A stretch of 64,000 bases of DNA from NCBI RefSeq assembly GCF_020735385.1, contig NZ_CP085953.1, forward strand, positions 806,001 through 870,000, given 5' to 3'. The stretch is from Granulicatella elegans (GTDB lineage: Bacteria > Bacillota > Bacilli > Lactobacillales > Aerococcaceae). The notes under the pieces are model-generated. The model had not been told where the DNA came from, searched no databases, and worked only from the letters and a program-made list of their open reading frames with translations. Both the position numbers and the translations under genes were made by a program. Shown here piece by piece: positions 9,702-23,526 of the stretch; within the stretch, counting starts at the first letter, position 1, and each line of letters opens with the position of its first letter.

Positions 9702-9714
9702 TTTTAACAATAAG

Positions 9715-9745
9715 AAAAGAGTCGAGTTATCTCGGCTCTTTTTTG
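9715..9745 (+). terminator. rplA terminator
   Basis: AAGAGTCGAG, loop TTAT, CTCGGCTCTT and a T run: a standard intrinsic terminator ending the rplK-rplA operon. Confidence 0.9.
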
Positions 9746-9848: not shown

Positions 9849-9946
9849 TTGATTTGAGGGAAGGACGCCATTGTTAGAAGGGAAAAAATCATAATAACGA
9901 AATTACATTTTAAAAATAGTTTCTTTTTTATAAAAAACTATTTCAT

Positions 9947-9969
9947 TGTTAGCGCTTTTATGTTAGAAT
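9947..9969 (+). promoter_or_regulatory. murQ promoter -10 with candidate cre site
   Basis: TAGAAT at 9964-9969 is a likely -10. The 14 bases at 9947-9960 (TGTTAGCGCTTTTA) match the CcpA operator core TGNAANCGNWWNCA at all but two places and fall in the spacer, where CcpA binding would repress. That fits a secondary carbon-source operon. Confidence 0.45.
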
Positions 9970-9991: not shown

Positions 9992-10903
9992 ATGACAGAA
10001 ATAATTAGATTAGATACTGAGAAAAATAATGAACGTACTACTGATATAGATATTTTATCTACAGAGGGCATTCTTAAAAAAATTAATGCGGAAGACCAGA
10101 GTGTAGCAAGAGTGGTTGAGAAATGTATACCTCAAATTTCGAATTTAGTAGATAAAATAGTAGAACGAATTAGAATTGGTGGACGTTTGTTTTATGTTGG
10201 TGCAGGTACTTCTGGGCGACTTGGTATTCTAGATGCTGCAGAATGTCCCCCAACATATGGAGTAGATAATAATTTAGTAATTGGGGTTATAGCAGGTGGT
10301 AATGATGCGATGTTTGTTGCACAAGAAGGTGCAGAGGATTCAATGGAGTTACCTATAGTTGATTTATCGTCGTATCATTTTTGTGAAAAGGATATATTAA
10401 TAGGATTAGCAGCAAGTGGTAGAACGCCTTATGTGATTGGGGGACTAAAATATGGGCAACAACTAGGAGCTCTAACAGCAGCTATTTCATGTGTTACAAA
10501 TGCAGAAATTTCAAAATATGCAGATTACTCAATTGAAGCTGTAACAGGAGCTGAAGTTATCATGGGGTCTACTAGGATGAAAGCGGGAACTGCTCAAAAA
10601 TTAATTTTGAATATGATTTCTACTAGCGTAATGATAAAACTTGGGAAAGTATATAAAAATTATATGGTAGATTTAAAGCCTACTAATCAGAAGTTAATGA
10701 TTCGCTCAAAAAATATGATTAGAACCCTTACGGGAGTTTCTCAAGAACAGGCAGATTTTCTTTATGAAGAAAGTGGACATAATGTGAAAAAGGCATTAAT
10801 TATGGAAATTATGAATGTAGATAGAAATACAGCTGAGAATGCGCTAGAAAAAGGGAATGGGCATATTAAGAGTGCTATTCAGCTTCTAGGAGGTGAAATT
10901 TGA
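9992..10903 (+). CDS. murQ: N-acetylmuramic acid 6-phosphate etherase
   Basis: MurQ removes D-lactate from MurNAc-6-phosphate to give GlcNAc-6-phosphate, the key step that feeds cell-wall muramic acid into amino-sugar metabolism. The 303-residue protein carries the SIS domain with GAGTSGRLGILDAAECPPT (about residue 66 on) and the ESGHNVKKALIME segment near the C-terminus, both typical of MurQ. A strong GAAGGAGGTGGG ribosome binding site precedes ATG. It leads the PTS/muramidase operon; its last bases overlap the IIA start, indicating translational coupling. Confidence 0.96.
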   Translation: MTEIIRLDTEKNNERTTDIDILSTEGILKKINAEDQSVARVVEKCIPQISNLVDKIVERIRIGGRLFYVGAGTSGRLGILDAAECPPTYGVDNNLVIGVIAGGNDAMFVAQEGAEDSMELPIVDLSSYHFCEKDILIGLAASGRTPYVIGGLKYGQQLGALTAAISCVTNAEISKYADYSIEAVTGAEVIMGSTRMKAGTAQKLILNMISTSVMIKLGKVYKNYMVDLKPTNQKLMIRSKNMIRTLTGVSQEQADFLYEESGHNVKKALIMEIMNVDRNTAENALEKGNGHIKSAIQLLGGEI

Positions 10904-11229
10904 TGCAAGATATGGAATTGATAGTTTTTGAAATTATTAGTAATGGTGGGAATGCAAAAGCATTAGTTTATGAAGCGATAGAGGCTTCTGAAAAAGGAAA
11001 ATTTAAGGAAGCAAGAGAGCTTCTTAATGAAGCAGATACTTTTTTAAATAAAGCTCATCAAGTGCAAACGGATTTAATTCAAAAAGAAGCAGCTGGAGAA
11101 AGAAATGAAGTTACTGTGCTATTTGTTCATGCGCAAGATCACTTGATGACTTCGATAGAAGTTAGAACATTGGCAGAAAATATCATTCGAATGAATGAAA
11201 GACTTTGGAAGTTGGAGAATAGAGAGTAG
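10903..11229 (+). CDS. PTS lactose/cellobiose-family IIA component
   Basis: Cytosolic phosphocarrier of a Lac/Chb-family phosphotransferase system: it takes phosphate from HPr and passes it to IIB. The 108-residue all-helical protein has the active histidine in VHAQDHLM (His76). The start is the ATG at 10903, overlapping the murQ stop as TGATG, with AGGAGGTG 6 bases upstream. A TTG one codon earlier is less likely. Its place between murQ and IIB ties this PTS to muramic acid use, not to plain cellobiose. Confidence 0.9.
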   Translation: MQDMELIVFEIISNGGNAKALVYEAIEASEKGKFKEARELLNEADTFLNKAHQVQTDLIQKEAAGERNEVTVLFVHAQDHLMTSIEVRTLAENIIRMNERLWKLENRE

Positions 11230-11244
11230 AGAGTAGGAATAAGA

Positions 11245-11607
11245 ATGGCTAGATTTAGAAAATGGACTGTAAAAAATATGGAACAGAATAAAAAATACAA
11301 AACTTCTTTAGGGATTACTGATTATGATATTCCTATGTTTGGCTATAAAAGTATTATGTTAATTTTTGTTTCAATTATCCTATCAATGTTTTTGATTCCA
11401 ACTTTTTGTAATTTGATTCAAATTGATTTTAAATGGCCATTTATTATTGTGGGTAGTATTATAGCGGGATTTACAGTATCATTTTCTCAGTTTTTTATAA
11501 ATTCCAAAATAGGTATCACAAAATTATTTTGGTTAATAGGTATAATTTGGTCTGTTATTATTGGGATAATCTATTACTTTATTGTTATGACTGGAGTAAT
11601 TTTATAA
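11245..11607 (+). CDS. Small membrane protein of unknown function in the MurNAc PTS operon
   Basis: I do not recognise this 120-residue protein. After a basic N-terminus of about 33 residues it has three hydrophobic stretches (about 35-56, 66-85 and 93-118), so it is probably an integral membrane protein with three helices. No PTS active-site motif is seen. It lies 15 bases after IIA and 17 before IIB in the same direction, so it is surely co-transcribed and may assist the transporter or its substrate. The ribosome binding site (GAGTAGGAA) is moderate. Confidence 0.7.
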   Translation: MARFRKWTVKNMEQNKKYKTSLGITDYDIPMFGYKSIMLIFVSIILSMFLIPTFCNLIQIDFKWPFIIVGSIIAGFTVSFSQFFINSKIGITKLFWLIGIIWSVIIGIIYYFIVMTGVIL

Positions 11608-11624
11608 AAAGTGGAGGTGAAATT

Positions 11625-11936
11625 ATGAAAATATTATTAGTTTGTTCAGGGGGTATGTCAAGTGCTATTGTTGCTAAAGCTTTACATGACGCTGGTGCAA
11701 AAGAAGGTTTGGAATTAGTAGTAGATGAATGTGGTACACAAGCTTTTGCTGAGAAAGTAAAAGAAGACTATAACATTTCACTTGTGGCACCACAAATTAG
11801 ACATCGTTATGATGTATTGAAAGCTAGCGCAGATGAAGTAGGGGTTCCTTGTTTATTGATAAAACCTCAAGGATACACTCCTCTAGGAGGACCGAAATTG
11901 CTTCAACAAATTAAAGAAGAATTGGAAATAAAATAG
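11625..11936 (+). CDS. PTS lactose/cellobiose-family IIB component
   Basis: IIB takes phosphate from IIA on a cysteine and gives it to the incoming sugar bound by IIC. The 103-residue protein opens MKILLVCSGGMSS, with the phospho-cysteine at position 7, and has the PQIRHRY segment usual in the Chb/Cel family. The start is the ATG at 11625, 7 bases after GGAGGTG; an in-frame start further upstream overlaps the preceding gene and has no matching site. Confidence 0.92.
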   Translation: MKILLVCSGGMSSAIVAKALHDAGAKEGLELVVDECGTQAFAEKVKEDYNISLVAPQIRHRYDVLKASADEVGVPCLLIKPQGYTPLGGPKLLQQIKEELEIK

Positions 11937-11953
11937 GAAAGTGGGGATTTTTT

Positions 11954-13288
11954 ATGTTTGATAAAATAACAGAGTTTATGGATACAAAGCTATCGACTCC
12001 GATGGCAAAATTAGCTGAGCAGCGTCATTTAAGAGCAGTTCGTGATGGTATTATTGCAACACTACCAATTATTATTGTTGCTTCTATGTTTTTAGTAATT
12101 GCATTTTTACCAAATTCTTTACCTAAAGATTGGGGAATTACACAATTTATTCAAGCAAATCAAGCGAAAATTTTATTACCATATCGTGTTTCGATGTATA
12201 TTATGTCATTGTATGCAGTTTTTGGTATAGGTTTTTCTTTATCATCTTCATACGATTTAGATGGTTTATCAGGAGGGATTTTAGCTGAACTTGCTTATTT
12301 ATTAACAATTGTTCCTAAAGTTGTTCCAGCTGCCTCTGCAGAAATAAAAACTTTAGCAGAAACTAGTGAGCCATTAAAAAATTATTTATCTTCATTACCT
12401 TCAGGTTTTGTTTTACCGATGGCGAATTTAGGGTCAGCAGGTATGTTTATAGGTATTTTATCAGCATTTTTAGCAGTAGAAATTTATCGTTTTACTCAAA
12501 AGAGTGGATTCAAAATTTCAATGCCACCACAAGTGCCAGCTTCAGTTGCTAGATCTTTTGAATCGTTAACGCCTACAGTTATTGTATTATTATTAGTTTC
12601 TACAATTACAATGTTTATTGGCATTGATGTTCATAAAATTGTAGGAGGAATTGTTGCTCCTTTAGTACAAGCAACAGATTCTATTTTTTCAGTAATCATT
12701 ATTATTTTCTTAACACAATTCTTTTGGTCATTTGGTATTCATGGCTGGTCAATTGTAGGGTCTTTAGCAAGACCGCTATGGTTAGTATTATTAGATGAAA
12801 ATACCGCTGCGTTTGCTAGTGGAAGTGCTATTCCGAACATTGCGGCAGAACCATTCTATCAATGGTTTGTAATGATTGGTGGATCAGGGGCTACTATTGG
12901 TTTGGCTATTTTACTAGTTTGGCGTTCAAAATCAACTTATGGTAAATCGCTTGGAAAAACAGCTTTAATTCCAGCAATTTGTAATATTAATGAGCCTTTA
13001 ATCTTTGGAACACCTATTGTGTTAAACCCTCAATTGATTATTCCGTTCATTTTAGCTCCTCTAGTAAATAGTGTAATTGCTTGGGTAGCAATGTCTACAG
13101 GGCTAGTAAGTAGAGTTGTTGCGAGTGCTCCTTGGACACTTCCTGGACCAATTGGTGCCTTTTTAGCAACAGGAAGCGATTGGAGAGCGCTTGTATTAAA
13201 TGTTGTATTAATTGTATTATCAATTTTAATTTATTATCCATTCTTCGTAATGTATGACAAATCATTATTGGCTCAAGAGCAAGAGTAG
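11954..13288 (+). CDS. PTS lactose/cellobiose-family IIC permease
   Basis: Membrane channel of the same PTS, 444 residues with about ten hydrophobic segments. The signature NINEPLIFGTPIVLNP (near residue 345) is the family sugar-binding loop. It follows IIB by 17 bases. Lac/Chb permeases usually import beta-linked disaccharides such as cellobiose, chitobiose or lactose. Next to murQ and a MupG-like muramidase, a MurNAc-containing disaccharide is an attractive substrate, but that is inference. An intrinsic terminator follows. Confidence 0.93.
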   Translation: MFDKITEFMDTKLSTPMAKLAEQRHLRAVRDGIIATLPIIIVASMFLVIAFLPNSLPKDWGITQFIQANQAKILLPYRVSMYIMSLYAVFGIGFSLSSSYDLDGLSGGILAELAYLLTIVPKVVPAASAEIKTLAETSEPLKNYLSSLPSGFVLPMANLGSAGMFIGILSAFLAVEIYRFTQKSGFKISMPPQVPASVARSFESLTPTVIVLLLVSTITMFIGIDVHKIVGGIVAPLVQATDSIFSVIIIIFLTQFFWSFGIHGWSIVGSLARPLWLVLLDENTAAFASGSAIPNIAAEPFYQWFVMIGGSGATIGLAILLVWRSKSTYGKSLGKTALIPAICNINEPLIFGTPIVLNPQLIIPFILAPLVNSVIAWVAMSTGLVSRVVASAPWTLPGPIGAFLATGSDWRALVLNVVLIVLSILIYYPFFVMYDKSLLAQEQE

Positions 13289-13304
13289 TAAGAATGTATC
13301 TTTT

Positions 13305-13332
13305 AGCCCTGTTCTTGTAACAGGGCTTTTTA
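13305..13332 (+). terminator. Internal terminator after the PTS IIC gene
   Basis: AGCCCTG (13305-13311) and CAGGGCT (13321-13327), followed by T residues, form a compact intrinsic terminator inside the locus. Genes from mupG onward would be read by readthrough or from another promoter, lowering their level relative to the PTS. Confidence 0.75.
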
Positions 13333-13357
13333 CTAATATATTTTAAGGAGAAAGTGA

Positions 13358-14446
13358 ATGAAAAGATTAGGATTGTCGATTTATCCTGAAAAGAGTACCT
13401 TGGAAGCAATTAAGGGATATATTAAAGATGCGAGTGAGTTAGGTTTTTCTAGAGTGTTTTCTTGTTTGTTATCTGTAAATAAACCAGCAGAAGAAATAAA
13501 AAAAGAGTTTACTGAAATAAATACTTATGCACATGAGTTAAATTACGAAGTTATTGTGGATGTGTCTCCAAGAGTATTCGGGGAATTAAATATATCTTAT
13601 AAAGATTTATCTTTTTTTAAAGAAATTGGAGCAGATGGAATTCGTTTGGACGCTGGCTTTTCTGGATTAGAAGAATCTATAATGACGTATAATCCTGAAG
13701 GGTTAATGGTTGAAATTAATATGAGTAATAATGTTCATACAATAGACACAATAATGGATTATAGACCGAATAAATATAAGTTGTATGGATGTCATAATTT
13801 CTATCCACATCGTTTTTCTGGATTGAATTTAGATTTTTATAAGGAATGTACACAAAGGTTTAGTAAATACGGCATAAATACTGCAGCGTTTGTGACTTCA
13901 CAAGATGAAAGAGCTTTCGGGCCATGGCCGACAACAGAGGGATTACCAACATTAGAAATTCATCGCAATTTACCATTAGATGTTCAAGTAAAACATCATA
14001 TTGCAATGGAATTAGTAGATGATATTTTAATTTCTAATTGTTATCCAACTAAAGATGAATTAGAAAGTCTAAAAGGATTGGATTTGAATCTTGTAACATT
14101 TAATGTGGAACTAGTTAAAGATATTCCTGAAATTGAAAAGAAAATTGTTTTAGAAGAGTTTCATTTTAACAGAGGAGATCAAAATGATTATTTCATTCGT
14201 TCAACTCAAAGTAGAGTGAAATATAAAGGACATAATTTTCAAGTTTTTAATGCTCCTAGTGTTATTAAAAGAGGAGATATCATTATTGAAAGTAGTGAAT
14301 ATGGACATTATGCAGGTGAATTACAAATTGCTCTGAAAGATATGGAAAATTCTGGAAAATCGAATGTAGTTGGTAAAGTTGTTGATATTGAGCATTTTAT
14401 ATTAGATGAACTTAAACCGTGGCAGAAATTTAAATTTAGATTATGA
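13358..14446 (+). CDS. mupG: MupG-family (DUF871/GH170) 6-phospho-N-acetylmuramidase
   Basis: A 362-residue protein of the DUF871 family. Its characterised member, S. aureus MupG, hydrolyses MurNAc-6-phosphate-GlcNAc inside the cell to MurNAc-6-phosphate and GlcNAc. The N-terminal TIM-barrel opens RLGLSIYPEKST, and the segments DGIRLDAGF and GCHNFYPHRFSG are typical; a smaller beta-rich C-terminal domain follows. The start has AAGGAGAAAG 5 bases upstream. Together with murQ it supplies both steps needed to break down a phosphorylated muramyl disaccharide. The family is clear; the substrate is inferred from context. Confidence 0.85.
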   Translation: MKRLGLSIYPEKSTLEAIKGYIKDASELGFSRVFSCLLSVNKPAEEIKKEFTEINTYAHELNYEVIVDVSPRVFGELNISYKDLSFFKEIGADGIRLDAGFSGLEESIMTYNPEGLMVEINMSNNVHTIDTIMDYRPNKYKLYGCHNFYPHRFSGLNLDFYKECTQRFSKYGINTAAFVTSQDERAFGPWPTTEGLPTLEIHRNLPLDVQVKHHIAMELVDDILISNCYPTKDELESLKGLDLNLVTFNVELVKDIPEIEKKIVLEEFHFNRGDQNDYFIRSTQSRVKYKGHNFQVFNAPSVIKRGDIIIESSEYGHYAGELQIALKDMENSGKSNVVGKVVDIEHFILDELKPWQKFKFRL

Positions 14447-14465
14447 TAAGTAGGTTGAAAATATC

Positions 14466-15896
14466 ATGAAAATATTATGGGGTGGAGCAACTGCTGCTAG
14501 TCAATATGAAGGTGGGTTTGAAGGTGGAAAAGGATTAGATACTCAAGATTGTAGACCTTATTTGCCACGTACTTCTAATGCTACAGAGGAAACTAGATTG
14601 TTGACGAAAGAAAAAATAGAAGAAGCTAAGATAAAAAGTTCTAATCAATATTATCCGTTTAGAAATGGTACAAAAGGATATGAACATTTAGAAGAAGATA
14701 TTGAATATTTAGAGGAATTAGGGCTAGATATTTATAGATTTTCAATAAGCTGGGCTCGATTGTTTCCAAATGGTATAGATGAGTCACCTTCTCCTGAAGG
14801 AGTTGCTTATTATGATAAAGTTTTTAAATTATTAGTTAAGAAGAAAATAAAGATTTTTTTAACGTTGAATCATTATGCTTTACCTATAAATTTAGTGGAA
14901 TGTTATGGTGGTTGGAAAGGGAGAGAATGTATTAAATATTTTCTTCATTTTGTACAATTTGTTTTCGAAAGATGGGGGGAGTTGGTTGATTATTGGCTAC
15001 CGTTTAATGAAATAAATGCGGGATATTTTAGTCCGTTTAATGGAGTAGGTTTATTAAAAGGAGAAGATGGGTATAATTTATCAGAAGTTTTTCAAGCTTT
15101 ACATCATCAGTTTGTAGCGAGTGCGAAAACGATTCGTTTAGCCAAACAAATGAAGTTGAAAGGGAAATTTGGATCAATGATTGCTTGTTTTTGTTATTAT
15201 CCTCTAACAAGTAATCCAGAAGATAATCTTAAATTGTTGTTTGAAGAACAAATGAATCAATGGTATTGCATGGATATTTTATCAAAAGGAGAATATCCCT
15301 ATTATTCATCAAAGTTTTTTGAATCTAAGAATATTACATTAAATATTACGGGTGAAGATAGAAAGGTATTAAAAGAAAACACTTGTGATTTTGTTTCTAT
15401 ATCGTTTTATACTTCGTCTGTCATTACTGTTGATGAATCGGAAAAAGTAGCAGGAAATTTAGTGGTATCCACAAAGAATCCATATTTAAAAGCTAGTGAA
15501 TGGGGATGGCAAATAGATCCAGTTGGATTAAGAACTTCATTGCATCGAGTATACGAAAGATATGGAAAACCTGTTATAGTCTCAGAAAATGGATTAGGTG
15601 CAAGGGATGTATTAACAGAAGATTATCAAATTCATGATTCTTATCGAATTGATTATATGAAAGCTTATTATGAACAAGCTCAATTAGCTTTTTTAGATGG
15701 TGTACCTCTTGAGGCATTTATTGCTTGGGGAATTATCGATATTGTTTCTGCAGGTAGTTGTGAAATGGATAAACGTTATGGGGTAATCTATGTAGATGCA
15801 GATAATTATGGTAACGGTAGTTATAAACGATATAAAAAAGATAGTTTTTATTGGTATAAGGACTTTATTCAAAGGTATAAATCTGTGGGGAAGTAA
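14466..15896 (+). CDS. GH1 6-phospho-beta-glycosidase
   Basis: Glycoside hydrolase family 1 enzyme, 476 residues, cytosolic. The acid/base glutamate is in PFNEIN (about Glu182) and the nucleophile in VSENG (about Glu374). The C-terminal SCEMDKRYGVIYVD carries the Ser-Lys-Tyr pattern that binds a 6-phosphate, so it should cleave disaccharides delivered by a PTS. Annotation would normally say 6-phospho-beta-glucosidase; here a GlcNAc- or MurNAc-containing phospho-disaccharide is also possible. It lies 19 bases after mupG with a weak ribosome binding site. Confidence 0.9.
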   Translation: MKILWGGATAASQYEGGFEGGKGLDTQDCRPYLPRTSNATEETRLLTKEKIEEAKIKSSNQYYPFRNGTKGYEHLEEDIEYLEELGLDIYRFSISWARLFPNGIDESPSPEGVAYYDKVFKLLVKKKIKIFLTLNHYALPINLVECYGGWKGRECIKYFLHFVQFVFERWGELVDYWLPFNEINAGYFSPFNGVGLLKGEDGYNLSEVFQALHHQFVASAKTIRLAKQMKLKGKFGSMIACFCYYPLTSNPEDNLKLLFEEQMNQWYCMDILSKGEYPYYSSKFFESKNITLNITGEDRKVLKENTCDFVSISFYTSSVITVDESEKVAGNLVVSTKNPYLKASEWGWQIDPVGLRTSLHRVYERYGKPVIVSENGLGARDVLTEDYQIHDSYRIDYMKAYYEQAQLAFLDGVPLEAFIAWGIIDIVSAGSCEMDKRYGVIYVDADNYGNGSYKRYKKDSFYWYKDFIQRYKSVGK

Positions 15897-15951
15897 TTAA
15901 ATCAGAAGATATTCAAAAGAAGAATAATCAGATATAAAGAGAGTGTGTAGA

Positions 15952-16797
15952 ATGAGTGTATTATATAAAATTAAAAGTTCAATAAATGCTCTTACAGATA
16001 CAGAATATGTGATAGCAGATTTTATTTTGAAAAATAGACAACTAGTATTGGATTCTAATGCAAAAGAATTAGGAGATGCTACAAAGACTTCAGCATCTGC
16101 TTGGGTTAGATTTGCAAAAAAAATGGGGTATAGAGGATTACCTGCATTTAAAGTAGAGTTAGCTAAAGAGACTGAAATAGCTAGTGTTGAAGATGAAATT
16201 GAAACTTTTTTAAATCCCAATGATTCTTTACAATTGTTATTGAAAAAAACTGAAAATATGGTATCTCAAAATATAAAAGAGACTTTTAATTTAATAGATT
16301 ATCATGAATTAGAAAAAGCAATCGAAGCAATTAGTGGTGCTAAAACAATTTATTTATTAGGTGTTGGAGGAAGTAGTGTTGTTTGTTTAGATTTTTATCA
16401 TAAAATGACTAGGATTCATCAAAATGTTATATATGATAGAGATTTACATACATTAATGGCGCGAATTGCTCAATTAGAAAAAGATGATGTGGTAATTGTT
16501 GTTAGTTATAGTGGAGAAACTGAATCTGTTAATACTGTTGTTAAGAGTGCGAAGAAAATTGGTGCGAAAATTATAGGTGTGACTAAATTTAATTTGAAAT
16601 CCACGCTTTCTAATTTGTCAGATATTAAACTTTTTGTTCCGATTGAAGAGAAGGAAATTCGATTAGGTTCAATCACTTCTAGAAATAGTCTTCTGATTAT
16701 TACGGACTTACTGTATTATGGTATTGCAAAAATTGATTTTAATTCAACAAAAGGTTTGCTTGTTCGAACTCGTAATTTCATTAAGGGGGAATTATAG
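15952..16797 (+). CDS. murR: RpiR/MurR-family transcriptional regulator
   Basis: A 281-residue regulator with an N-terminal RpiR-type helix-turn-helix (about 1-75) and a C-terminal SIS domain that binds a phosphosugar (GVGGSS at about 133 and VSYSGETESVN at about 181). MurR of E. coli answers to MurNAc-6-phosphate; position in the murQ locus suggests the same here. The ATG at 15952 is preferred; GTG at 15943 is an in-frame alternative with poorer spacing. It overlaps the anmK start by one base. Confidence 0.85.
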   Translation: MSVLYKIKSSINALTDTEYVIADFILKNRQLVLDSNAKELGDATKTSASAWVRFAKKMGYRGLPAFKVELAKETEIASVEDEIETFLNPNDSLQLLLKKTENMVSQNIKETFNLIDYHELEKAIEAISGAKTIYLLGVGGSSVVCLDFYHKMTRIHQNVIYDRDLHTLMARIAQLEKDDVVIVVSYSGETESVNTVVKSAKKIGAKIIGVTKFNLKSTLSNLSDIKLFVPIEEKEIRLGSITSRNSLLIITDLLYYGIAKIDFNSTKGLLVRTRNFIKGEL

Positions 16798-17939
16798 TGT
16801 TAGCAGTTGGATTGATGTCTGGAACTTCGTTAGATGGTGTTGATGTAGTTCTTTGTGATATTACCGGTAAAGACGAAGATACTCAGGTAAAGCAATTGAA
16901 ATTTAAAACATATGGAATTCCTGAATATTTGAGAGAAAAAATAAGAAAATGTTGTAGTAGAGAATTGATTCCTGTAGAGTTAATTTGTTCTCTAAATTTT
17001 GAATTAGGGAAGTTATTTGCAGAATCAGTAAAAGCTTTATGTGAAGAATCTTCTGTGAATTTAGAAGACATAGCTTTTATAGCTAGTCATGGACAGACGA
17101 TATTTCATATACCAAAAGCATTTTCTGATTATATTCCTAGTACATTACAAATTGGAGAGGCTGCTATTATTGCTAATGAATGTAGAACTACAGTAATCTC
17201 AAATTTTAGAGTGATGGATATGGCTGTGGGTGGAGAAGGTGCTCCTTTAGTACCTTACAGTGAGTATTTATTATATGCAGATGAAAATCAAGCTGTTGCA
17301 TTACAAAATATAGGTGGAATTGGAAATGTTACGTTTCTTCCTAAAAAAGGAGATTTTACTAAAGTAATAGCGTTTGATACTGGACCAGGGAATATGATGA
17401 TTGATGCTGCAGTACAAAAGTTATATGGAGAAAAGTTTGATAAAAATGGAGAGTATGCAAGTAAGGGGAAATTAATACCTCTATTGGCTGAGGAGTTGAA
17501 GAAACATCCCTATTTTGCATTAGATATTCCTAAGACGACAGGTAGAGAGATGTTTGGAGAGCATTACACATATGCACTTTTAGAAAAATATCAAGATTAT
17601 AATAAGAATGATATTATTTTTACATTAACATGGTTTACAGCTTATTCTATTGCCTATCATTATAAAAAATATTTTATTCATCACCATAATTTTGATAAAT
17701 GTATAATTGCTGGTGGAGGAGCTTATAATGAGTGTCTTATAAATTTAATAAAAAGAGAATTACCAGAAATTGAGATACTGATTCAAGAAGAACTAGGGTA
17801 TTCTTCAGAGGCGAAAGAAGCGATAGCTTTTGTGATATTAGGCAATCAAACTTATCATATGAGACCGTCAAATGTACCTTCTGCAACAGGAGCAAGTAAA
17901 AGTGTTATTTTAGGGCAGATTACCTATCCAACTATATAA
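16797..17939 (+). CDS. anmK: Anhydro-N-acetylmuramic acid kinase
   Basis: AnmK opens and phosphorylates 1,6-anhydro-MurNAc to MurNAc-6-phosphate, the substrate of MurQ. The 380-residue protein shows the family motifs GLMSGTSLDGVD (5-16), SHGQT, NIGGIGNVT and DTGPGNMMID, and GGGAYN towards the C-terminus. The start is GTG, overlapping the regulator stop as TAGTG, with AAGGGGG upstream. Anhydro-sugars come from lytic transglycosylases, so this cell can take up muropeptide sugar in anhydro form too. The locus ends here at a bidirectional terminator. Confidence 0.95.
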   Translation: MLAVGLMSGTSLDGVDVVLCDITGKDEDTQVKQLKFKTYGIPEYLREKIRKCCSRELIPVELICSLNFELGKLFAESVKALCEESSVNLEDIAFIASHGQTIFHIPKAFSDYIPSTLQIGEAAIIANECRTTVISNFRVMDMAVGGEGAPLVPYSEYLLYADENQAVALQNIGGIGNVTFLPKKGDFTKVIAFDTGPGNMMIDAAVQKLYGEKFDKNGEYASKGKLIPLLAEELKKHPYFALDIPKTTGREMFGEHYTYALLEKYQDYNKNDIIFTLTWFTAYSIAYHYKKYFIHHHNFDKCIIAGGGAYNECLINLIKRELPEIEILIQEELGYSSEAKEAIAFVILGNQTYHMRPSNVPSATGASKSVILGQITYPTI

Positions 17940-17942
17940 AAT

Positions 17943-17981
17943 AAATAAACCTATTGTAGATGGACTGCAATAGGTTTATTT
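17943..17981. terminator. Bidirectional terminator between anmK and the amino-sugar kinase
   Basis: AAATAAACCTATTG and CAATAGGTTTATTT form a perfect 14-bp stem around a 10-base loop between two convergent genes. Confidence 0.88.
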
Positions 17982-17982
17982 G

Positions 17983-18834
17983 TTAGAAGTAGAAGATACT
18001 TTCGTTTGCTGGACGAGAGGGGATAATTGTTAAAGTCTTATTGTGTGATTCGATTTCAGCTAAAACACTATTTAATACATGGGAGTTGTTTTTAATAACA
18101 CTACCTTCAAAAGCAACAGTAATATTGTTTTCTTGATTACAAGATAATAAAGCTTTTGCAATATTTTTTCCGGCTTGTTTCGCAATAGATGTTAGAAATA
18201 GATTATTGTTGTAATCTAAGTATAATGTTGCTAATTTTGCTACTTCTGTTTTAGGACTGTTATATACTGTGTTTATAATTGATTGACGATTTGGGAAAAT
18301 TTGTTGAATAGTAGGTAGTAAATCAAGGAAGTCCATAGGACTTTCGTTATAATCTAAGAAGTTTATATATGTTTTTAGAATTTGTTTTCCAATCCAATAA
18401 CCACTTCCTTCATCACCAAGTATGTGCCCCCAACCACCTTTTTGAATAAATTGATTATTTTTTCTGCATAAAAGTGATGATCCTGTTCCTGCTATAAAAA
18501 GATTACCATCTTTATTTTTAAAAGTAGCAATATGACTCATTTTTAAATCTGATTCAATTGAAAATTTACAATGAAGTTTTTCCGCGAATGCTGATGTTAA
18601 CTCTGGAATGAGGGTACTAGCTCCCGCCATCCCAATACTAATATAGCTAATATTGGAATAATTTACTTTATTTTTTAAAAGTAAAATTTCGATTACTTGA
18701 ATGACATTGTTAACGGCTGTATCGAAATTAACAATAGGATTTCCCATTTCTCCTTTGATTCTATCGACAGCGTGGTTTTCTTGATATAAAATTCCAATTG
18801 TTTTTGTTCCTCCTGCATCAATTCCTATTTTCAT
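17983..18834 (-). CDS. BadF/BadG-family N-acetylglucosamine/N-acetylmuramic acid kinase
   Basis: A 283-residue ASKHA-fold kinase with the phosphate-1 motif DAGGTKT (6-12) and the second loop AGTGSSLL (about 115). It resembles the GlcNAc kinases and the MurK dual GlcNAc/MurNAc kinase of clostridia. GlcNAc set free by MupG or GH1 cleavage would need such a kinase before entry into glycolysis or wall synthesis, so it completes the locus although it is on the opposite strand. A perfect AAAAGGAGGT ribosome binding site precedes ATG. GlcNAc versus MurNAc preference cannot be read from sequence. Confidence 0.82.
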   Translation of the reverse strand: MKIGIDAGGTKTIGILYQENHAVDRIKGEMGNPIVNFDTAVNNVIQVIEILLLKNKVNYSNISYISIGMAGASTLIPELTSAFAEKLHCKFSIESDLKMSHIATFKNKDGNLFIAGTGSSLLCRKNNQFIQKGGWGHILGDEGSGYWIGKQILKTYINFLDYNESPMDFLDLLPTIQQIFPNRQSIINTVYNSPKTEVAKLATLYLDYNNNLFLTSIAKQAGKNIAKALLSCNQENNITVAFEGSVIKNNSHVLNSVLAEIESHNKTLTIIPSRPANESIFYF

Positions 18835-18890
18835 GAAAAGACCTCCTTTTGATTAATATCGTAAAGTAAAAACACAAGAAATTCAATGCT

Positions 18891-18932
18891 AAGAATTTTT
18901 TCTTTCATTTCTTAACTAAAAATATGAAGATT
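18891..18932. repeat. Decayed duplicate of the segment at 20672-20709
   Basis: AAGAATTTTTTC...TTAACT.AAAATATGAAGATT occurs here and, with small differences and a 4-base gap, at 20672-20709. On the minus strand the other copy reads as an open frame, while this one has stops. It joins directly, through the shared TGAAGATT, to the stray OYE-gene fragment. Confidence 0.6.
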
Positions 18933-18991
18933 ATCGTTGTGCAACTAAAATAGCGATTGAAGCAGGATTTGATGGGGTGGAAATTTCTTCT
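18925..18991. repeat. 67-bp stray copy of the OYE gene (65/67 identical to 22764-22830)
   Basis: Bases 18925-18991 match 22764-22830, inside the old-yellow-enzyme gene, with two mismatches and in the same orientation. Here the copy is out of context and is read in the minus direction as the tail of the truncated transposase frame. It marks an illegitimate recombination event. Confidence 0.85.
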
Positions 18992-19197
18992 TCCGTTGCA
19001 TGTTGGAAAATATTTTTCGTAAGGAGTAAACGCCACATACATACAACTGGATAATCATTTCTATCATTTTCTCGTTCTTCATCTAATTTTTTTAATAACT
19101 TTTCTGTTGGTAATACTGATAGTATTTGTGGTGATTTTTCTAGTTCCCCTAAATTTTCTTCTTCACTAAATAGGTTTATTTGTGTTACAATGCTCAT
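18931..19197 (-). pseudogene. Truncated transposase fused to foreign tail
   Basis: An 88-codon frame. Residues 1 to about 70 (MSIVTQINLFSEEENLGELE..., then NDYPVVCMWRLLLTKNIFQH) resemble the N-terminus of IS1182/IS4-like transposases with the DUF772-type domain. The remaining 16 or so residues are read from the stray OYE-gene copy in antisense and are not transposase. Real transposases of this kind have over 400 residues, so the DDE core is missing and the gene is dead. An AAGAAGGA ribosome binding site is still present. The family call is from resemblance only. Confidence 0.65.
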
Positions 19198-19403
19198 GTG
19201 AAAATTCCTTCTTTGATATTTTTAAACCAACTATATTATACAGGAATTTCCACTATTTTTTTAGTCGTAAAATTACAAAATAAACAAAATTGATACCATA
19301 AAATCTTTATTTTACGGGATTTCATGGTGCCGATTTTTATTTTAGTACTACTTCTATAGTATTGATTTCATTGGCTTTATTTAACTACGAAAATAATTCC
19401 TAC
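19198..19403. other. Transposase leader and possible IS end
   Basis: AT-rich non-coding sequence. ACCATAAAATC (from about 19297) and GATTTCATGGT (to about 19330) form an imperfect inverted repeat that may be a terminator or part of an old IS end. No gene is seen. Confidence 0.3.
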
Positions 19404-22317: not shown

Positions 22318-23526
22318 TTGAAAACAATAGAAGCATTGTTTGAACCTTTTACATTGAAGGGGGATATTGTATTAGACAATCGTTTTGTGTTATCGCCAAT
22401 GGTGACGAATTCTTCAATGGAAGAAGGGTATATTACGCAAGATGATTTATTATATGCAAAGAGACGTGCAGGTTCTGCTGCTTTACAAATTACAGGGGCA
22501 GCGTATGTCAATAAGCAAGGGCAACTATTTGAATTTGGATTTAGTGCAATGGATGAGGCGGCTATTTCAGGATTGAAGAAATTAGCGCAGGAAATGAAAT
22601 CTCAAGGAGCAACGGCTATTTTACAATTAACTCATGCAGGACGTTTTGCCAGTCATGCATTGAATCGAGATAAAACGGTTGTAGGTCCCAGTGCAATGAA
22701 ATTACAATCGCCATTTCCTCATGAAGTACATGAGATGACGATTGAAGAAATTCAACAAGTAATTGAAGATTATCGTCGTGCAACTAAAATAGCGATTGAA
22801 GCAGGTTTTGATGGGGTGGAAATTTCTTCTGCTCAACGATTGTTAATTCAAACATTCTTCTCTACTTTTTCGAATGAGAGAATAGATGAATATGGATCAC
22901 AATCTTTAGAAAATCGCTCTCGTATTGGAATTGAAGTGTTGAAAGTCGTTCAAGAAACCATTCAACAATATGCGGGAGAACAATTTATATTAGGATTTAG
23001 AGCGACTCCAGAAGAAACTAGAGGGGATCAGATTGGCTATAGTATTGATGAGTTTCTAGAATTTTTCCATCAAGCTTTAAACATTGCTTCCATTGATTAT
23101 TTAGCGGTTGCGAGTTGGGGTCATGATGTATTTCGAAATAAAATTCGCGCAAAAGGTCCTCATCAAGGTGAATTAGTGAATGCTGTGATTTATAAAGCGT
23201 TAAAAGGAAAAGTTGCGGTGATTGCTTCAGGCGGGATTAATAGTCAAGAGAAATCGTTAGAAGCCTTAGAACATGCCGACCTTGTTGGCTTATCGACTCC
23301 GTTTATTACGGACCCAGAATTTGCCGAAAAAATTAAAGAAGGTAAACCAGAAGAAATTCAATTGTCGATTAAACCGGAGAATTTAGAAGAATTAGCCATT
23401 CCACAAGCGGCATTTAAAGATATTGTGCCATTAATGGATTTTGGAGAATCGCTTCATAAAGATGCTAGAGATTTCTTTAGAAGTTTAGAAGTGAACTATA
23501 AGGAGAGAGCTGTCGATGAAAATTAG
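22318..23526 (+). CDS. NADH:flavin oxidoreductase, old yellow enzyme family
   Basis: A 402-residue FMN-dependent ene-reductase-type TIM barrel. It shows LTHAGR (substrate and FMN contacts), DGVEISSAQRLLIQTFFS and SNERIDEYGSQSLENRSR in place of the usual HGAHGYL...YGG segment, and a C-terminal ASGGI phosphate loop. The change of the catalytic HxxH/HxxN pair to SSAQ suggests altered chemistry. Initiation is at TTG, after AAGGAAGGTG. It is the first gene of the extended sirtuin-M operon and overlaps the next gene by 11 bases. Confidence 0.9.
   Translation: MKTIEALFEPFTLKGDIVLDNRFVLSPMVTNSSMEEGYITQDDLLYAKRRAGSAALQITGAAYVNKQGQLFEFGFSAMDEAAISGLKKLAQEMKSQGATAILQLTHAGRFASHALNRDKTVVGPSAMKLQSPFPHEVHEMTIEEIQQVIEDYRRATKIAIEAGFDGVEISSAQRLLIQTFFSTFSNERIDEYGSQSLENRSRIGIEVLKVVQETIQQYAGEQFILGFRATPEETRGDQIGYSIDEFLEFFHQALNIASIDYLAVASWGHDVFRNKIRAKGPHQGELVNAVIYKALKGKVAVIASGGINSQEKSLEALEHADLVGLSTPFITDPEFAEKIKEGKPEEIQLSIKPENLEELAIPQAAFKDIVPLMDFGESLHKDARDFFRSLEVNYKERAVDEN
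22764..22830. repeat. Parent copy of the 67-bp duplicated fragment
   Basis: This part of the OYE gene, coding around DGVEISS, is the source of the copy at 18925-18991. Confidence 0.85.

Follow-up and report, generated by a model that had tools for sequence, protein, structure and literature searches.

In a window of 64,000 nucleotides from Granulicatella elegans (assembly GCF_020735385.1, contig NZ_CP085953.1, positions 806,001 to 870,000 of the forward strand; "the window" refers to this whole stretch), positions 9992-18834 carry a gene cluster in which murQ and anmK stand around a phosphotransferase system (PTS) of the lactose/cellobiose class (Lac class). We found that this locus is a real and recurrent variant of PTS-based salvage of muramyl sugars. 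The locus probably imports disaccharide fragments of the cell wall via the Lac-class PTS, i.e., it would serve a muropeptide-derived disaccharide; for the more specific reading, an operon that salvages peptidoglycan disaccharides whose non-reducing sugar is N-acetylglucosamine (GlcNAc), we see a roughly even chance. A first-pass annotation of this DNA had proposed import of an intact beta-linked disaccharide containing N-acetylmuramic acid (MurNAc), and our data favor this as the likeliest purpose of the locus. We infer both the substrate and the polarity of import from sequence comparisons.

All genes named by the first-pass annotation are present in the order it gave, with zero internal stops in the ten frames of the locus, along with an open reading frame (ORF) of 120 amino acids that it had not mentioned. 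On the forward strand, the cluster starts with murQ, encoding a MurNAc-6-phosphate etherase (9992..10903; TIGR00274, 368.4 bits, cut-off 302; closest solved structures 4lzj, 1nri and 4s12), followed by genes for PTS IIA (10900..11229; PF02255, 120.5 bits; TIGR00823, 117 bits, under the cut-off of 137), a small protein of 120 amino acids that is hydrophobic by eye and belongs to no family (11245..11607; no Pfam match over cut-off), PTS IIB (11625..11936; PF02302, 41 bits; TIGR00853, 60 bits, under the cut-off of 110), PTS IIC (11954..13288; TIGR00410, 379.5 bits, cut-off 236; placed in a tree below), a phosphoglycosidase of glycoside hydrolase (GH) family 170, also known as DUF871 (13358..14446; PF19200, 298 bits; PF05913, 136 bits; clade A in the tree described below), a GH1 6-phospho-beta-glycosidase (14466..15896; PF00232, 344 bits; closest solved structure 6wgd), an RpiR/MurR-type regulator (15952..16797; PF01418 and SIS) and the anhydro-MurNAc kinase AnmK (16797..17939; NF007142, 549.7 bits, cut-off 435; closest solved structure 3cqy). 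The gene for a BadF-family sugar kinase (17983..18834; PF01869, 61.5 bits) lies on the reverse strand, convergent with the rest of the locus. The most likely starts of IIB and RpiR are the ATGs at 11625 and 15952 (the ORF listing has them from 11529 and 15943); the query sequences used for these two proteins started 6 and 3 bases upstream of the likely ATGs, respectively.

MurQ, AnmK and IIC (as a member of the Lac family) clear curated cut-offs, which bears out the description of a murQ/anmK locus around a Lac-class PTS. The calls for the other proteins are less specific: IIA and IIB pass Pfam but fall below the stricter NCBIfam subfamily cut-offs, and IIC is under the cut-off of the cellobiose equivalog TIGR00359 (380 vs 434). 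GH1 and BadF also pass Pfam but fall short of their NCBIfam models. GH1 scored 445 bits against NF007158 (cut-off 639), and its top seven solved structures are (putative) 6-phospho-beta-glucosidases; in the alignment, the murQ-linked GH1s show the motif SAGSCEM in five distinct proteins, with SASTGEM and SAGTGEM in two other GH1s. The best solved match of BadF, 8zo3, is a MurNAc/GlcNAc kinase, a weak match (E = 1.5e-14), and BadF reached 87 bits against the NagK model NF046058 (cut-off 370).

According to the first-pass annotation, a murP gene elsewhere in the genome, together with growth on MurNAc that does not depend on this PTS, would speak against its proposal. The window genome, represented by one contig of 1,890,620 bases, has nine PTS_EIIC matches (eight over cut-off) and four glucose-class (Glc-class) IIB domains. 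The PTS of the locus itself is not MurP-like, as it has no fused Glc-class IIBC and consists instead of separate Lac-class IIA, IIB and IIC proteins (PF02255, PF02302 and TIGR00410, all over cut-off). The top score of the MurP model NF007152 in the genome was 181 bits (cut-off 516), for a sucrose transporter. This cut-off alone is an insufficient test for MurP, as MurP of Staphylococcus aureus itself misses it (339/516), and we thus made a direct comparison with S. aureus MurP and with the MurP-type protein of one of the related loci identified below (L013), which are 37% identical to each other. The sucrose transporter, with 28-29% identity to both MurPs over nearly full length, was rejected as MurP because it is a sucrose PTS (TIGR01996, 601 bits, cut-off 559) that adjoins a GH32-like gene. 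The other three Glc-class proteins, i.e., one adjoining a NanE-like gene, a IICBA protein and one that has a stop in its own front part and adjoins a GH4-like gene, were rejected because they match the two MurPs over short pieces of 48-74 residues only; the neighbor names GH32, NanE and GH4 are presumptive ones, given from the sequences. Overall, no recognizable MurP was found among the Glc-class transporters of this one-contig genome (non-PTS routes were not searched for), and the proposal of the first-pass annotation stands on this point.

We next consider GH170, for which 99 proteins were placed in a tree by a quick IQ-TREE run. A long branch with 100% support in the Shimodaira-Hasegawa-like approximate likelihood-ratio test (SH-aLRT) splits clade A (50 rows) from clade B (49 rows, several of them long rows of unsure place inside that clade). 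The window GH170 falls into clade A and S. aureus MupG into clade B; the former shares 24% identity with S. aureus MupG, as compared to 44% with the GH170 beside Borrelia chbCAB. The name "MupG-like 6-phospho-muramidase" given by the first-pass annotation is thus not supported, as the GH170 domains are present but the clade is not that of S. aureus MupG. The two clades also differ at single positions, with W190 in clade A (gapped in 49/49 clade B rows) and N227 in clade A (98%; D in 49/49 clade B rows). Moreover, a Glc-class IIBC was found in the stretch for 48/49 clade B rows, and Lac-class PTS genes were found in the stretch for 44/50 clade A rows, including the neighbor of Borrelia chbCAB. 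The model of the window GH170 (mean predicted local distance difference test score, pLDDT, 91.7) was closest to 1x7f (Z = 43.5), which is also the closest solved structure by sequence, and to 2p0o, E. faecalis EF_2437 (Z = 32.2). The other 48 of the best 50 structures (Z = 14.3-15.4) were other barrel enzymes, e.g., pyruvate kinase, with 1ur0 (Z = 14.5) as the sole glycosidase among them; this predicted structure gives no information on the substrate.

Two further clade A proteins, from Enterococcus faecalis (L216:7001-8089) and Clostridioides difficile (L222:5995-7089), are encoded by genes that have PTS genes on one side and DgaE-type ammonia-lyase genes on the other, a hint that the substrate there is a different disaccharide, containing an amino sugar or a sugar acid. 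In the wall-less Mycoplasmopsis columboralis, an annotated anmK on a plasmid record (1042-2202) is directly preceded by a sequence that resembles GH170-A and aligns in three pieces (L221:18-1047).

The association of Lac-class PTS genes with the two kinases was assessed in a survey of 250 Bacilli genomes, of which 135 had murQ over the cut-off. A total of 140 murQ regions were taken from the places listed, not counting the window (the listed murQ places G243, G207, G101, G134, G159, G180, G053:C9:491818 and G202:C1:345520 were left out), and neighbors within 8 kb of murQ were labeled by the best match to our own reference set. These regions comprised 71 MurP-type loci (so labeled when murQ had a Glc-class IIBC within 8 kb, which was not individually checked as MurP), 35 loci with an ATP-binding cassette (ABC) transporter, 6 Lac-class loci, 19 loci with no transporter of these three kinds ("none") and 9 whose murQ ORF had been filtered out. 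The anmK gene was present in 6/6 Lac-type, 0/71 MurP-type and 12/35 ABC-type loci and in 8/19 loci of the "none" type; the corresponding counts for badF were 6/6, 0/71, 24/35 and 4/19. GH170 of clade A was confined to the Lac-type loci (6/6; 0/71, 0/35 and 0/19 in the other types) and GH170 of clade B to the MurP-type loci (50/71; 0/6 Lac-type, 0/35 ABC-type and 0/19 "none"), and neither GH1 nor GH4 was found within 8 kb of murQ in any MurP-type locus (0/71 each). The enrichment of anmK, badF and GH170-A in Lac-type loci (P = 4e-9; Fisher's exact test) is a value that ignores kinship and overstates independence. The distribution of anmK and badF suggests that both kinases go with routes that would deliver MurNAc or anhydroMurNAc unphosphorylated; the MurP route needs neither kinase for MurNAc because MurNAc arrives phosphorylated.

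To describe the recurrence of the gene set, we combined a scan with the window GH170 protein (36 loci, annotated by comparison with the window proteins), the murQ survey and 20 further loci. After removal of four duplicates (L178, L194, L203 and L207, each 100% identical to a kept locus over 13,021-16,992 bases), this yielded 52 loci in which a Lac-class IIC and a clade A GH170 lie at most 8 kb apart, among which there were no other identical pairs; as loci were partly picked by GH170 likeness, these counts do not measure frequency. Of the 52 loci, 29 had murQ within 8 kb of IIC, and these murQ-linked loci contained anmK in 26/29 and badF in 28/29 cases. Among the 23 loci without murQ within 8 kb (which include L028, where murQ is present just past 8 kb), anmK and badF were found in 5/23 and 7/23 cases, respectively. 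The neighborhood was found in at least seven named genera, which argues that it is not due to chance. The suggestion of the first-pass annotation that the full set with this transporter seems undescribed was borne out insofar as we found no description in the literature searched, with subscription papers mostly outside this search; the set is, on the other hand, not confined to this genome, as the 29 murQ-linked loci show. In L013, L205 (where the stretch ends within the MurP gene) and Vagococcus allomyrinae (L039), a MurP-type operon is located directly beside the Lac-type one, an arrangement that fits different substrates for the two. In L013 and L205, this second operon is at the position matching window positions 18835-19300, past BadF, where the window contains a 71-base stretch with 96% identity to part of the gene at 22318-23526; this stretch may be a rearrangement scar, perhaps the trace of a lost MurP operon.

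These data bear on the polarity of the imported disaccharide. AnmK opens 1,6-anhydroMurNAc, a sugar found only at reducing ends. In a PTS of this kind, the phosphate goes onto the non-reducing sugar, which has been stated for diacetylchitobiose in E. coli (PMC12791066); with AnmK acting on the reducing-end sugar and the phosphate on the non-reducing one, the intermediate would be GlcNAc6P-anhydroMurNAc (6P, 6-phosphate). Import of the non-anhydro form would require a MurNAc kinase, for which BadF is the candidate. In the route that we propose, the Lac-class PTS would take up GlcNAc-MurNAc and GlcNAc-1,6-anhydroMurNAc and phosphorylate the GlcNAc, and GH170-A and/or GH1 would split the phospho-disaccharide into GlcNAc-6P and MurNAc or anhydroMurNAc. 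AnmK, by its family function (equivalog match), would convert anhydroMurNAc to MurNAc-6P, the BadF kinase, if MurK-like, would convert MurNAc to MurNAc-6P, and MurQ, again by family function (equivalog match), would convert MurNAc-6P to GlcNAc-6P and lactate, with RpiR presumably regulating the operon. No GH3 match was found in the window genome (GH20 was not searched for), and no NagZ of the GH3 family would therefore feed AnmK. In Lacticaseibacillus paracasei, growth on diacetylchitobiose requires both a cellobiose-class PTS and the GH170 protein ChbE, which shares 26% identity with S. aureus MupG (PMC12791066). This genetic requirement is evidence that a disaccharide with non-reducing GlcNAc can be handled by a GH170 enzyme.

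MurNAc-GlcNAc, one of the disaccharides named by the first-pass annotation, fits less well than GlcNAc-(anhydro)MurNAc with the presence of AnmK and a MurK-like BadF kinase. If the Lac-class PTS did import MurNAc-GlcNAc, GH170 would cut MurNAc6P-GlcNAc like S. aureus MupG, BadF would phosphorylate the freed GlcNAc and AnmK would be a side branch. Although the glycosidase family is the same, murQ adjoins and a kinase for released GlcNAc would help, we consider this scheme unlikely, as the window GH170 belongs to the other, distantly related clade and as AnmK would be left without a source in the murQ-linked loci. Release of GlcNAc would be expected for MurP/MupG-B loci as well, but badF was found in 0/71 MurP-type loci, which likewise makes a plain GlcNAc kinase the less likely role for BadF. 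Moreover, the low frequency of badF in Lac-PTS/GH170-A loci without murQ indicates that badF tracks murQ and anmK rather than the release of GlcNAc.

A second, unrelated phosphoglycosidase is encoded in 22/29 murQ-linked loci (GH4 in 17 and GH1 in 5), and GH1 occupies the place held by GH4 in Bacillus-type loci, as if the two were interchangeable. In Priestia megaterium (L215), GH170-A is accompanied by a 6-phospho-beta-glucosidase. This could be read as dual polarity, with one of GH170-A and GH1 (GH4 elsewhere) acting on MurNAc6P-GlcNAc and the other on GlcNAc6P-(anhydro)MurNAc, so that both muramidase and glucosaminidase products are used. We regard dual polarity as quite improbable, since both GH4 and GH1 are missing from the surrounding 8 kb in 7/29 loci and since the MurP-type operons beside the Lac-type ones in L013, L205 and L039 would be redundant. 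A further possibility, to which we give a low probability, is that the locus does with a PTS what the AmpG-NagZ-AnmK pathway does in Gram-negative bacteria. In this reading, a Lac-class PTS subfamily would import GlcNAc-anhydroMurNAc, N-acetylated GlcNAc6P-(anhydro)MurNAc would be the substrate of GH170-A, working as a phospho-NagZ, and the GH1/GH4 partner would act on N-deacetylated glucosamine-6P-MurNAc (GlcN6P-MurNAc). The N-deacetylated form would come from bacteria that deacetylate their wall. The assignment of GH1/GH4 to GlcN6P-MurNAc draws on a single statement, i.e., that an E. coli GH4 enzyme cuts glucosamine-6P glycosides (PMC12791066).

Several observations weigh against salvage of disaccharides with non-reducing GlcNAc as the function of this locus. 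The Lac-type loci of the survey number only six, from four genera, and kinship also exists among the 29 murQ-linked loci, nine of which are joined by stretches of 1.6-15 kb that are 93-95% alike. GH3 is present in 12/20 genomes with such loci (absent in 8/20); G267 (L013) and G308 (L205), which are the closest relatives, belong to those with GH3. The proposed route accounts only in part for the pairing of two glycosidases within a single operon, and ChbE, which is outside the GH170 tree made here, cannot be counted as a clade A member. In addition, 6/50 clade A rows have no Lac-class PTS gene in the stretch examined, and clade A occurs in several contexts (chitobiose PTS, DgaE-type operons, murQ), which implies that the clade alone does not give substrate specificity. 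Seventeen genomes have GH170-A without murQ in the first stretch, and five of these (L017, L030, L045, L047 and L048) have no murQ over the cut-off anywhere; clade A thus probably serves other sugars too. A search of the 250 Bacilli genomes found 20 IICs with at least 45% identity in 19 genomes (the window's included), beside which GH170 was found in 15, AnmK in 10 and murQ in at least 7 cases (from coordinates); 13/20 had no murQ beside them among the matches listed, and 5/20 (G087, G120, G204, G213 and G240) had neither GH170 nor AnmK nor a listed murQ.

The lack of a listed murQ beside many close IICs is one of the observations favoring a PTS for chitobiose or cellobiose whose operon took in murQ, anmK and badF to form a regulon for amino sugars in general, with muramyl sugars entering otherwise. 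By sequence, 3qnq is the sole solved relative of the IIC; it carries the label cellobiose-specific IIC, and we take it to be the chitobiose IIC of Bacillus cereus. GH170-A is, moreover, found beside Borrelia chbCAB and in DUF3284-type loci without murQ nearby (L030, L044 and L195). Conversely, the IIC tree shows a 24-row clade (99% SH-aLRT in a quick tree) that holds all 20 rows near murQ (19 by label and Priestia L215 by annotation) and is apart from 3qnq and Borrelia ChbC, with 0 of the other 26 rows near murQ, although sampling for this tree was not random and favored murQ-linked loci. No other PTS of the window genome resembles MurP, and anmK, badF and murQ co-vary across loci. We therefore consider a chitobiose or cellobiose PTS with an absorbed amino-sugar regulon an improbable explanation. 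The tree had also suggested that murQ-linked IICs form an exclusive transporter family, an idea that was dropped when the unbiased search weakened it. Nevertheless, murQ over the cut-off was present somewhere in 19/19 genomes with close IICs, as compared to 135/250 overall. Overall, these sequence data indicate that the PTS is murQ-associated while the wider IIC family is not exclusive.

Three further features were identified on the forward strand of the locus. A hairpin resembling an intrinsic terminator (9713..9744; a 14-pair stem, then a T run) is located between the upstream ribosomal-protein genes and murQ. A match to the catabolite-responsive element (cre), with one mismatch from the consensus that the search pattern allowed for, is located upstream of murQ (9946..9961), and its core aligned in the two relatives L013 and L205. 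A terminator-like hairpin in the gap between IIC and GH170 (13305..13327), almost the same in two relatives, represents a possible partial terminator within the operon. A promoter scan gave 41 matches as compared to 48.8 expected by shuffling, i.e., no excess. Small-protein ORFs of the kind found at 11245-11607 occurred 9 times in the loci compared, and other small ORFs of approx. 95-100 amino acids adjoin IIC in Bacillus-type and Carnobacterium-type loci.

If salvage of disaccharides with non-reducing GlcNAc is the function of this locus, Gram-positive bacteria would take up wall sugars by two PTS routes that mirror each other, i.e., MurP/MupG-B for glucosaminidase products (MurNAc-GlcNAc) and Lac-PTS/GH170-A for muramidase and transglycosylase products (GlcNAc-MurNAc and GlcNAc-anhydroMurNAc). 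AnmK of these bacteria would gain a source and a role, and GH170 clade A, which includes the B. cereus protein 1x7f (deposited in 2004 as uncharacterized) and Borrelia BBB07, would gain a testable activity. The labels "MupG family" and "6-phospho-N-acetylmuramidase" on clade A proteins (in annotation and Pfam) may then represent function transferred across a deep split.

Among known systems, the mupG-murQ-murP-murR locus of S. aureus resembles the window locus in PTS import of an intact muramyl disaccharide and in the presence of GH170, MurQ and an RpiR-type regulator (Kluj et al. 2018, PMC6262408), and the same report foresees that remoter GH170 members may differ in substrate. S. aureus, however, has a Glc-class MurP and a clade B GH170, whereas the window has Lac-class IIABC and clade A. 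MurNAc is the non-reducing sugar of the MurNAc-GlcNAc that enters by the MurP-MupG route of S. aureus, and the route in the window would be the mirror image of this one; AnmK, BadF and GH1 of the window each have no counterpart within 8 kb of murQ in the 71 MurP-type loci.

The L. paracasei chb genes share the combination of a cellobiose-class PTS with GH170, but the genes described in the portion of the report consulted include no murQ, anmK or kinases and do include the DUF3284 protein ChbD (PMC12791066), for which no PF11687 match was found in the window genome. L030, L044 and L195, with a DUF3284 gene beside clade A GH170 and IIC, are chb-like by gene content only. On plasmid cp26 of Borrelia burgdorferi, Lac-class IIABC genes (chbCAB) likewise adjoin a clade A GH170 (BBB07), but the 10 features of this stretch include neither murQ nor anmK. 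The transporter is known for chitobiose, and a chbC mutant was reportedly unable to use this sugar (PMC4331090). BBB07 (L214:3601-4698, B. burgdorferi B31 cp26, BB_RS05510), annotated as alpha3-beta1 integrin-binding, is a full-length GH170 (PF19200, 271 bits; PF05913, 129 bits) whose neighbors are chbA, chbB and the divergent chbC; as an alternative role, it could act on chitobiose-6P as a cytoplasmic phosphoglycosidase. A table for C. difficile includes an etherase and an AnmK whose locus tags end in 15565 and 15590 (PMC11633334), perhaps another such locus. For two disease groups of Enterococcus cecorum, LicC3 (IIC, 431 amino acids) is reported in 84/113 and 14/33 isolates, and AnmK is reported in 85/113 and 14/33 (PMC13391275). 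These near-equal counts suggest that a single locus of the window kind may underlie both markers.

The ABC-type murQ loci of Bacilli resemble the window locus in murQ, BadF (24/35), anmK (12/35) and RpiR (24/35). They differ in having an ABC importer and, in 17/35 loci, a gene that presumably encodes a NagZ-type GH3, in place of GH170/GH1. Finally, the AmpG-NagZ-AnmK-MurQ pathway of E. coli shares with the window the action of AnmK and MurQ on anhydroMurNAc, which there derives from GlcNAc-anhydroMurNAc (summarized in PMC5061867). E. coli recycling uses the AmpG permease and NagZ, whereas the window, with no GH3 match, has a PTS and a phosphoglycosidase at these steps.

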